IMG/VR virus record: IMGVR_UViG_3300046167_000309
Coordinates: 1 to 30,468 of that record
Reading direction: 5' to 3' (one strand)
Length of the DNA stretch: 30,468 nucleotides
Origin: a virus
The position numbers were made by a program, and so were the translations under genes. Below the pieces are notes generated by a model that was not told the DNA's origin, made no database searches, and saw only the letters and a program-made list of their open reading frames with translations. Shown here one piece after another: positions 2,875 through 13,412 of this stretch (its first letter is position 1; each line of letters opens with the position of its first letter).

Positions 2875-3916
2875 ATGGATATAATTGAACTTTTTATTGA
2901 CGACGAAGACGAAGTATCGGGAATCGATGCAATAAGTGTTGTCGAAAATCCGGCAATCGAAGAAGACTTCATTGCATTAAAAAATCAAGAATTTCAATCT
3001 TGCCGAAGTTGACAAAGAAAAACGCATCTTGATGGGTGCGGCACTTGTCCCAAATAAACCCATATTTCGACGTTCGGGTGAAAATGAGTATTATATATAC
3101 TTCAGCCGTGAAACGGTCAGAAAGGCATCCGAATTGTTCTTTATACGTGGCAATCAATCCCGTTCGACACTTGAACATGATATTCCGTTGAACGGACTTA
3201 CCGTTGTGGAATCTTGGATCGTAGAATCCGAACAAGACAAATCACGTCAATACAATATGAATGTTCCGGTCGGAACGTGGATGGTTTCCATGAAGGTATT
3301 AAACGACGACATTTGGGAAAATTATGTCAAAACCGGTAAGGTAAAAGGATTTTCAATTGAAGCATACTTCACCGACAAAATGGAACGTCCAAAAGACAAG
3401 ACAATCACGGATGAACTTGCAGCAATCGAAGAAGAAGAAAAACAATATATCTTGTCACAAATACGTGCAATTATTAAAAATGACAAACGGACAAAATCCG
3501 GGAAGAAGATTGAAATGGAATCATATTCAGATTACCCGGATGCGGTTTCCAATAATGCACAACGTGGAATTGATTTAAATAAAAAGGTCAATAATAAATG
3601 CGCAACCCAAGTTGGGAAAATTCGCGCCCGTCAATTAAGTCAATCAAAACCGATTTCGAAGGAAACTTTGGTTCGAATGTTTTCATATTTAAGTCGCGCA
3701 CAAGAATATTATGACGAAGGTGACAACGAAGCGTGTGGAACGATTTCTTATTTGTTGTGGGGTGGCAAAGCCGGTCTTCGATGGGCGACATCAAAAATGC
3801 GTGAATTGGATTTATTATCTGAAGAATTAAAAGAACCTTGTCAAAAAGGATATGAAATGATTGGGTTTAAAATGAAGAATGGACGTCGTGTCCCTAATTG
3901 CGTACCCGAAGAATGA
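2875..3916 (+). CDS. XkdF-like prohead maturation protease (one frameshift)
   Basis: This should cleave scaffold and capsid precursors in the prohead. The true start is ATG 2875: MDIIELFIDDEDEVSG then VVENPAIEEDF, a typical XkdF-type N-terminus. The frame is then lost in the A6 run 2979-2984; dropping one A continues as FNLAEVDKEKRILMGAALVPNKPIFR in the frame open from 3029. Candidate catalytic residues are the His of TLEHDIPL and the Ser of GFSIEAYF, the positions expected for phage serine proteases of this type. A second domain follows (DYPDAVSNNAQRG to GGKAGLRWATSKMREL), a C-terminal domain often attached to phage head proteins, and a tail reading GYEMIGFKMKNGRRVPNCVP. The gene sits before scaffold and capsid genes as expected, and its stop overlaps the next ATG. 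Confidence 0.8.
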
Positions 3917-11830: not shown

Positions 11831-11971
11831 ATGAATGATTTGAAGATATATGCAACGAACTTGATCGCACTTGCGTTTAGTGTCACATCAATAAATCCAT
11901 TTTTGCAAGCCATTTCATTATTGTTGGCGATTATTTATACAATAATATCAATATCTAAAAAATTGAAATAA
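11831..11971 (+). CDS. Small membrane protein, 46 aa (holin-like)
   Basis: MNDLKIYATNLIALAFSVTS is followed by INPFLQAISLLLAIIYTIIS and a short basic end ISKKLK. One or two membrane segments are present. This opens the lysis block: four other small membrane proteins and an endolysin follow. A holin or holin regulator is likely, on size and position only. It is too short to have been called by many gene finders; its codons and spacing support it. Confidence 0.55.
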   Translation: MNDLKIYATNLIALAFSVTSINPFLQAISLLLAIIYTIISISKKLK

Positions 11972-12349
11972 ATGCAGCTTCCAAAAAACGGTGTCGCAAA
12001 AGAAATTCGACATTATGTCGGGTCGTTGTTTATCTTCTTGTTTGTCATTGGGATCATTGTTGTATTGATACAATTCCCGGTTCTTGATACAAACAAAGAA
12101 GTCGTAATGATGTTAATTGGAACAATTAGTGCTTCGATCGGAATCGTCGTGTCGACAATAACCGGAAGCAAACCGGACGATATTACGGCATTAAAAAACA
12201 ACCTTGAAAAAAAGGAAAATCAAATTGAATTACTTGTCAAGGCAAAAGACCAACTTGAAGCAATGGTCATTGATTTACAAAAACAAATGTTGGAAAATCA
12301 AGATGCAATTATGGACAAAATAATCCTTGAAGGCGGCAATCGATTATGA
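11972..12349 (+). CDS. Two-TM membrane protein with coiled coil (holin/spanin-like)
   Basis: 125 residues. Membrane segments lie near 16-36 (VGSLFIFLFVIGIIVVLIQF) and 44-64 (VVMMLIGTISASIGIVVSTI), and a charged coiled coil fills the C-terminal half (NNLEKKENQIELLVKAKDQL onward). It starts right after the TAA of the preceding gene. It probably acts with the endolysin, as a holin or as an envelope spanning component. A structural membrane role cannot be excluded. Confidence 0.55.
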   Translation: MQLPKNGVAKEIRHYVGSLFIFLFVIGIIVVLIQFPVLDTNKEVVMMLIGTISASIGIVVSTITGSKPDDITALKNNLEKKENQIELLVKAKDQLEAMVIDLQKQMLENQDAIMDKIILEGGNRL

Positions 12350-12382: not shown

Positions 12383-12460
12383 ATGAAAAAAGTAAAATGT
12401 AAATGTGGAAACACGACAAATCCAAACGGATATTGTGACGGTACACACTTAAATAAATAA
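12383..12460 (+). CDS. 25-residue CDGSH-type iron-sulfur peptide
   Basis: MKKVKCKCGNTTNPNGYCDG is followed by THLNK and TAA. The four likely [2Fe-2S] ligands are Cys6, Cys8, Cys18 and His22, giving C-x-C-x9-C-x3-H with CDGTH at 18-22. The canonical CDGSH signature is C-x-C-x8-C-x3-H with CDG[SAT]H, so this copy has one extra residue in the loop. It is almost nothing but the motif. It lies in the lysis block between the holin-like genes and the endolysin. Its start is in a run of A/T typical of starts here. The job in the phage is unknown; redox sensing or modulation of host iron-sulfur metabolism are guesses. Confidence 0.6.
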   Translation: MKKVKCKCGNTTNPNGYCDGTHLNK

Positions 12461-12462
12461 AA

Positions 12463-12618
12463 ATGATAAAAGAATATTTTAATATTGCAATTGACAAAAT
12501 CAAGAAATGGTATTTTATAAATTGGAATGGTGGAATGTTTGATCGTGGAAAAACAATCTTTGTTTCCGTGGTTGCATTCTTTGTATTGGTTAAAATTATA
12601 TATTCAATTTTTGCATGA
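12463..12618 (+). CDS. Small single-TM protein upstream of endolysin, 51 aa
   Basis: MIKEYFNIAIDKIKKWYFIN then WNGGMFDRGKT, followed by a C-terminal membrane segment (TIFVSVVAFFVLVKIIYSIF). Its stop overlaps the endolysin start in ATGA, so the two are translationally coupled. That coupling and the single hydrophobic helix fit a holin-type or lysis timing protein. Confidence 0.6.
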   Translation: MIKEYFNIAIDKIKKWYFINWNGGMFDRGKTIFVSVVAFFVLVKIIYSIFA

Positions 12619-12977
12619 AATATTTCAGCTTATCCGAATTTGATTCACCGGATCACCCCGGTTCGGGGACAAACATGGACGGAAGATTCCTTGAAATGTT
12701 GGACAACGCCCGTGGGATTTACGGACGGTCAATGCGTATCAATTCGGGATACCGAACAATTTACAAAAATCAAGAAGTCGGTGGGAAACCAAATTCAACC
12801 CATTTGCAAGGAATCGCGGCGGATGTACATTGCAACAATTCCCGTGACCGTCACGATATGGTCAAGGCATTTATGGAAGCCGGGTTTTCACGTTTGGGGG
12901 TCGGAAATACATTCATTCACATCGATTCCGGCGACATCCATTCAGATAAGGACGCAAACGTCATTTGGACATACTAA
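12615..12977 (+). CDS. Endolysin, peptidase M15 (D,D-carboxypeptidase-like)
   Basis: A 120-residue zinc peptidase that should cut peptide bridges of peptidoglycan at lysis. The M15 signature is present: RINSGYRT, then THLQGIAAD with His63 and Asp70 as metal ligands, and FIHID with His102 and Asp104. The order SGYR, H-x(6)-D and H-x-D is the M15_3 type. Length is that of a bare catalytic domain, with no wall-binding domain and no signal peptide, so export depends on a holin. The start is the ATG overlapping the previous stop. Confidence 0.85.
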   Translation: MKYFSLSEFDSPDHPGSGTNMDGRFLEMLDNARGIYGRSMRINSGYRTIYKNQEVGGKPNSTHLQGIAADVHCNNSRDRHDMVKAFMEAGFSRLGVGNTFIHIDSGDIHSDKDANVIWTY

Positions 12978-12995: not shown

Positions 12996-13412
12996 ATGGA
13001 TAAGAAACGCTTCAAAGACACCGACGTTGGAAAATTCCTTTTAAATAAAATACCTTCAGTTGTCGGAGCAATTGCCGGGCAATCACCCGTTGGAAATGTA
13101 ATTCAAGCAATCATTGGCGGTTCGGATATGTCTGAAGAAGACAAACAAGTTGCCCTTGAAAAATTAAGAAACGAACGCGCAGAAATTGACGGGATCACAA
13201 GAAGATGGGTTTCGGATTCAAGAAGTCAATCTTGGCTTGCAAGAAATGTTCGTCCCCTTACATTGGCCGTATTGGTTTGTTCTTATGTTGGTGGGTGGTA
13301 TATGGGTCTTCCAACTGAAGACACGGCTTCGTTGCTTACATGGGTTTTATGTGGGTACTTCGGCGCAAGAACTGCGGACAAAATCGGTGTTAAATTTCCA
13401 AGTCAAAAATAA
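12996..13412 (+). CDS. Holin of the 3-TM (GTA holin) type
   Basis: 138 residues. Residues 1-80 include IPSVVGAIAGQSPVGNVIQA and a charged helix with EEDKQVALEKLRNERAEIDG; the conserved WVSDSRSQSWLARNVRPLTLAV follows; then hydrophobic segments near 85-105 and 110-128, ending with YFGARTADKIGV. The WVSD...SWLxRNVRPLT signature and ARTADK ending are those of the 3-TM phage holin family. It probably forms the pore that frees the M15 endolysin. The order endolysin-holin is unusual but not rare. Confidence 0.75.
   Translation: MDKKRFKDTDVGKFLLNKIPSVVGAIAGQSPVGNVIQAIIGGSDMSEEDKQVALEKLRNERAEIDGITRRWVSDSRSQSWLARNVRPLTLAVLVCSYVGGWYMGLPTEDTASLLTWVLCGYFGARTADKIGVKFPSQK

Follow-up and report, generated by a model that had tools for sequence, protein, structure and literature searches.

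A predicted 25-residue CDGSH module in a phage lysis operon and its relatives in marine viruses and bacteria

Introduction

Can a CDGSH module stand alone as a peptide of only 25 residues, and what might a phage gain from carrying one? These questions are raised by a small open reading frame in a virus record (IMG/VR record IMGVR_UViG_3300046167_000309; the whole stretch analysed, 30,468 nucleotides, is called the window below). A preliminary description of the window had read this frame as a minimal, perhaps peptide-sized, CDGSH module in a phage lysis block, with a loop between ligands one residue longer than canonical.

The type 1 protein of this class, mitoNEET/CISD1, is a membrane-anchored homodimer of about 108 amino acids. 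The published CDGSH consensus, C-X-C-X2-(S/T)-X3-P-X-C-D-G-(S/A/T)-H, places eight residues between the second and third ligands (PMC5859297). Lin et al. list the universal CISD residues as C2, C4, S/T7, P11, C13, D14, G15, S/T/A16 and H17, assign the dimer interface to Phi1, P11 and Phi12, and conclude that without a beta-sandwich, including an N-strand and a P motif, the module does not form an integral structure; CISDs work as pairs (PMC3174974).

The window frame is a real gene

Translation bore out the frame as it had been described: the ORF encodes MKKVKCKCGNTTNPNGYCDGTHLNK followed by a stop codon, with Cys6, Cys8, Cys18 and His22 in the pattern C-x-C-x9-C-x3-H and an intact CDGTH core (Table 1). 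The 17-residue motif leaves just eight further residues, too few to make up a beta-sandwich. The loop between the second and third ligands, GNTTNPNGY, is indeed one residue longer than in the published consensus (nine versus eight; PMC5859297).

By our own arithmetic, the ligand pattern carries about 35 bits of information, and about 2e-6 occurrences would be expected in a window of this length. Relative to the closest relative (L120), the ORF has 2 differences in 75 coding bases, both synonymous, and the 40 bases immediately upstream hold several differences. Taken with the spacing and reversed-pattern controls given below, the information content of the pattern and the exclusively synonymous changes place the ORF beyond chance. 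We conclude that it is a real gene, an ordinary member of a conserved family, at the coordinates in Table 1. Tblastn, which is insensitive at such lengths, found no match among GenBank phages for either the 25-residue peptide or a 43-aa relative, and two longer relatives with the canonical x8 spacing gave only weak matches to one unannotated faecal phage. At the sensitivity used, PHROGs had no family for CDGSH mini-peptides.

Table 1. Features of the lysis block and proteins associated with the CDGSH module
Feature	Sequence	Coordinates	Strand	Basis or remark
XkdF-type (S78) protease	window	3029-3916		no CDGSH tail
Hydrophobic ORF, 46 aa, head of lysis block	window	11831-11971	+	ORF list; no family match; read from sequence
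Holin-like membrane and coiled-coil protein, 125 aa, directly upstream of peptide	window	11972-12349	+	phrog_297 holin, E 0.003, weak
CDGSH-module peptide (predicted), 25 residues	window	12383-12460	+	translation; Pfam zf-CDGSH 14 bits; family scans
51-aa protein, one apparent transmembrane segment	window	12463-12618	+	ORF list; no family match (Pfam, PHROGs)
M15 peptidase, presumed endolysin	window	12615-12977	+	PF08291, E 3.3e-15
Holin, 138 aa	window	12996-13412	+	phrog_3427, E 9.9e-12
XkdF-type (S78) prohead protease with x9 module as C-terminal tail	L026	1914-3677		related phages
N-terminal x9 module, apparent membrane segment and YceI domain in one protein	L353	905-1564	-	Flavobacteriales
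PSP1-domain protein with x9 module as C-terminal tail	L343	2554-3732	+	PF04468
Ribosomal protein bS16 with x9 module as C-terminal tail	L438	4292-4939	-

A family of CDGSH mini-peptides in viruses and bacteria

Relatives were collected by scanning DNA for the pattern C-x-C-G-x8-C-D-G-[ST]-H, which has the x9 spacing of the window peptide. Matches came from at least 119 viral contigs and from at least 120 loci in bacteria, and most lie in ORFs 22-60 residues long. When the spacing was lengthened by one residue (x10) as a control, only 3 viral contigs matched. Among 199 Flavobacteriaceae genomes, the real pattern was found at 15 places in 13 genomes and the reversed pattern at none.

Conservation extends to positions that the search pattern leaves free. 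Ser or Thr occupies the CDGSH Ser/Thr position (position 7 of Lin et al., three residues beyond the second Cys) in all 170 distinct peptides, with Thr in the window, and the loop Gly is present in 162 of them; Asn or Asp stands ahead of the turn in 160. Estimates of pN/pS over the whole core are biased by the pattern search, and unforced codons alone were used. For these loop codons pN fell well short of pS: pN/pS was 0.39/0.70 in phages, 0.30/0.72 in hosts and 0.20/0.71 in a CxCGC subgroup of phages; in the window lineage it was 0.37/0.57, from six sequences that are too few and too diverse for a firm ratio. CDGSH mini-peptides form a conserved family that is widespread among marine viruses and bacteria, yet its members score below annotation cut-offs. 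Our literature search found no description of such peptides, in keeping with the earlier surmise that phage-encoded copies are undescribed. The idea of a phage-specific oddity has to be given up, since the chromosomes of marine Flavobacteriia and Paenibacillus encode the same peptides, as do, in tandem copies, those of Opitutae.

Comparison with CISD proteins

The ligand arrangement of CISDs, C-x-C...C-x3-H with a CDG(S/A/T)H core, is present in the window peptide and kept in every relative that carries the frame, which upholds the earlier reading of a minimal, peptide-sized module in a phage. Ligand order and core are also common to the peptide and mitoNEET, although the latter has a C-terminal P motif and an x8 loop with Pro. 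In the window peptide Gly takes the place of this proline, and Pro11 occurs in none of the 170 distinct peptides (0/170). A hydrophobic Phi1 is found in only 23 of the 170, the position usually being Lys or Gln. The peptide scores 14 bits against PF09360 (E 0.063; 16 bits in a six-frame search), below the curated cut-off of 29.5 bits; canonical-spacing phage peptides can exceed that cut-off, as does one of 39 aa with 32 bits.

For a 32-aa syntenic relative, AlphaFold gave a model with a pLDDT of 82-83 over the motif and no beta-sandwich; the window peptide has neither an N-strand nor a P motif. When this model was compared by Foldseek with 350,542 PDB chains, the only two matches were 3TBM and 3TBO (CDGSH types 4 and 3), at an rmsd of 1.3-1.4 Å over 22 columns and with E values of 4.9 and 6.3 that are not significant alone; VIA-align gave Z <2. 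With these two types (PF09360) the peptide has in common the CxC...CDG(S/T)H ligand order, the Ser/Thr and the Asp-Gly, and the model of the 32-aa relative also reproduces their short helix after the His. It differs from them in the missing N-strand, P motif and beta-sandwich, in the x9 rather than x8 loop, in the substitutions at Pro11 and Phi1, and in length (25 residues versus at least 53).

The longer loop is found in a bona fide CISD. L340 is an 80-aa tandem CISD (zf-CDGSH, 61 bits) whose first motif is x9 and whose second is canonical x8, which supports placing the x9 loop in the CDGSH lineage; the two CDGSH matches of the modelled 32-aa relative, not significant alone, lend support as well. 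Among tandem CISDs of type 6 (MmCISD, and L340 here), L340 shares the x9 loop with the tandem modules of Opitutae, but type 6 proteins have N-strands that make a minimal beta-sandwich, whereas neither the tandem Opitutae peptides nor that of the window show any. For a tandem Opitutae peptide, AlphaFold gave a poor model (pLDDT 53), unusable for judging whether modules pair. Because it keeps the ligands and Ser/Thr but lacks Pro11, Phi1 and the sandwich and has an extra loop residue, the window peptide is best classed, from its sequence, as a free-standing CDGSH module outside the seven described CISD types rather than as a canonical CISD.

Placement in phages

The gene sits in a tight operon that runs from the 125-aa membrane and coiled-coil protein through the peptide to the 51-aa single-TM protein, the M15 peptidase and the holin; the 51-aa frame starts two bases past the peptide stop codon. 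The peptidase and holin matches downstream (Table 1) substantiate the lysis-block placement, and the 138-aa holin shares 31% identity with the protein annotated as holin in Nonlabens phage P12024L, whose gene adjoins that of the endolysin. No CDGSH motif was found in the lysis-block regions of P12024L or of phage ctz7E20. Near position 12330, a single additional base, absent from L120, L123, L124 and L125, shifts the last codons of the window's 125-aa gene and brings its stop forward; the insertion may be real or an assembly error. The window terminase is closest to those of Flavobacterium psychrophilum phages (43% identity), with more distant matches in 6 of 299 Flavobacteriaceae genomes, and because of these matches the host of the virus is likely a flavobacterium.

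Among 80 loci fetched via the downstream holin, the peptide lies near 8, including 7 of the 10 closest, each time with all four ligands. The other 72, many of them fragments with little upstream sequence, show no trace of it nearby, not even a degraded one. Since it is present near just 8 of the 80, the peptide is an accessory, not a core, gene of the lysis operon, carried by many phages of flavobacterial type, and it is no regular or required component of the cassette. The preliminary description had named a missing frame or lost ligands in related phages as evidence against its reading: ligands proved to be kept without exception and no degraded copy was found, but many relatives do lack the gene, which is what one would expect if it is accessory.

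Lysis-block neighbours were found at 62 of 93 phage x9 loci, and the peptide usually follows directly 3' of a holin-like membrane gene. In the 35 lysis-block loci with both neighbours identified, a set in which a few contigs occur twice, its start lies between -10 and +6 nt from the membrane-gene stop in 24 and between +155 and +191 nt in five more. In other phages the module is located elsewhere or fused to unrelated proteins.

Cellular relatives and the YceI link

Peptides of 25-30 residues are encoded on the chromosomes of marine Flavobacteriia and Paenibacillus, with tandem copies in Opitutae; a host version reads MKADRPKCGCGNTSNSEGYCDGSHLNK, and the peptide of marine Flavobacteriia is nearly identical to that of phages. 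Polaribacter glomeratus (L349) is a cultured carrier of the gene. At 50 host loci the peptide adjoins a YceI-domain gene, on the same strand in 50/50, with a median gap of 4.5 bp (n=48 measured). The cellular peptide is usually operonic with a YceI lipocalin gene in marine Flavobacteriia, and in bacteria it mostly comes immediately after this lipid-redox gene. Subsets of host loci have MarR, HxlR, rhodanese or anthranilate synthase genes nearby, and in another subset the next gene downstream encodes an NADPH-dependent FMN reductase. In one Flavobacteriales locus (L353; Table 1), the x9 module, an apparent membrane segment and the YceI domain are joined in a single protein. L371 resembles this fusion but is cut by the locus end.

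The Burkholderia protein BcnA belongs to the YceI family. YceI/BcnA and a cytochrome b561 jointly guard the envelope against lipid peroxyl radicals, and the abstract describes the BcnA-LcoA-PsrA system (YceI lipocalin plus cytochrome b561) without a CDGSH peptide; what it has in common with the host loci is the YceI-domain protein, the usual partner of the host peptide (PMC9113575). No report treating YceI and CDGSH together was found in our literature search. The notion that hosts with the peptide are those without normal CISDs was dropped: a canonical match is present in 6 of 13 peptide-bearing Flavobacteriaceae versus 122 of 186 others.

Discussion

Our preferred reading, to which we assign as a whole a probability of about one half, is that the peptide is a free-standing CDGSH module, probably [2Fe-2S], that serves membrane-linked redox partners. 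It would consist of the CDGSH (NEET) metal-binding loop without the beta-sandwich that carries it elsewhere, with a turn of the Asn-Pro-x-Gly type replacing the proline turn. The kept residues suggest that the three Cys and one His would bind metal, most likely a labile [2Fe-2S] cluster, and the missing CISD dimer interface suggests that the peptide may act as a monomer or dock on a partner. In cells, host operons and the L353 fusion more tentatively suggest that the peptide works on the cytoplasmic side, as redox or cluster partner to an envelope system that is linked to YceI and acts against quinone or lipid oxidation. The phage may have acquired a copy that it makes late, with its membrane and lysis proteins, so as to keep the redox state of the envelope favourable until lysis. 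Late support of the host envelope redox state is the likeliest phage role, and the weakest step of the argument. Phage and host roles may well differ, because in peptide-bearing phages no YceI is visible beside the peptide, and the lysis-block position could be a mere convenient slot for accessory genes.

The main rival, which we regard as unlikely, is a small module binding zinc (or otherwise not Fe-S), whose metal is structural and which serves as a partner-binding tag with no redox role. A chain of 22-30 residues without a beta-sandwich would leave an iron-sulfur cluster exposed to solvent, and the same module is attached, much like a structural tag, to the ends of such unrelated proteins as the XkdF protease, bS16 and a WYL_2 protein. 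Yet the residues specific to Fe-S CISDs (the C-x-C spacing, Ser/Thr and Asp-Gly) are all kept, L340 has the same loop, and the neighbours are redox proteins: YceI and FMN reductase, and 2OG-Fe oxygenase for the x8 class. It is much less probable still that the ORF is spurious or a decayed piece of a larger CDGSH gene, a view already contradicted. The frame is very short, falls under the Pfam cut-off and has no GenBank phage match, but length and ligand set are constant over hundreds of loci, substitutions are synonymous, operon spacing is tight, and the 80 syntenic relatives include no degraded intermediates.

Two other proposals accept the module and differ over its task. The peptide might regulate lysis as a sensor of the inner-membrane redox state, or of cluster loss there, that times the coupled holin-like gene; this would fit a start within about 10 bases of the membrane and coiled-coil gene stop in most lysis-block loci, and the 62 of 93 phage x9 loci in the lysis block. 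We consider it improbable: lysis goes on independently of the peptide to judge from the 72 of 80 holin-matched relatives without a nearby copy (many being fragments short of upstream sequence), and elsewhere the module stands apart or is fused to unrelated proteins. Interference with the host seems more improbable again. Here the phage peptide would pair with a host CDGSH peptide or CISD, poison or steal its cluster and weaken host redox defence, as the near-identical peptides of likely hosts and the pairing of CISDs (PMC3174974) might allow; however, interface residues are missing, and all four ligands are retained, one of which would often be lost in an inhibitor. The genes around the host peptide (YceI, FMN reductase, MarR/HxlR) point to a putative redox-partner role rather than interference.

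If cluster binding holds true, few genetically encoded iron-sulfur proteins would be as small as these peptides, and the CDGSH module would work without the dimerisation scaffold thought necessary. Phages would then carry a copy of a predicted host-type redox peptide in the lysis operon, and the host YceI operon offers a testable lead on bacterial CDGSH function, which is still poorly understood. Size, the missing scaffold, breadth and the YceI link are the main interest of the family. A broader proposal, tentative and advanced as a possibility, is that free-standing iron-sulfur micro-proteins of 22-30 residues constitute a large unannotated family of marine phages and bacteria outside the seven CISD types, binding [2Fe-2S] without a beta-sandwich or canonical dimer and serving envelope proteins as plug-in redox partners (YceI in cells, a lysis-operon membrane protein in phages).

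Other forms of the module

L026, L045, L055 and L109, from related phages, encode an XkdF-type (S78) prohead protease that ends in an x9 module; the window has its own protease of this type, which lacks this C-terminal tail (Table 1). Four phage loci (L006, L009, L032 and L075) encode a variant of 56-72 aa in which the module is followed by a conserved Cys-rich tail, for example VCKGVCKITGNKIQLGWCGTKCC, which is perhaps a second metal site. The canonical x8 phage modules (viral contigs L201-L320) are also often 24-60 aa long. A 2OG-Fe(II) oxygenase gene lies within 1 kb at 50 of 120 x8 viral loci, and the density of such genes, fused copies counted, is about 5.5 per 10 kb at less than 1 kb from the module versus 0.5 at 4-7 kb. 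Several x8 modules, as in L207, are N-terminal fusions to the oxygenase.

The x9 module also forms the C-terminal tail of a PSP1-domain protein and of ribosomal protein bS16 (Table 1). A conserved actinobacterial peptide of 49 aa (L337, L352, L360, L376, L404, L425, L431 and L440) has Lys replacing the loop Gly and continues from the x9 module into a conserved tail, KVVKAVKADLAEKLEANGFPHASEYVKNN. Tandem x9 modules occur in L341, L354, L383, L385, L387, L402, L407, L418, L436 and L442, among them Opitutae and other Verrucomicrobiota, mostly in ORFs of 54-92 aa, with one inside an ORF of 146 aa.
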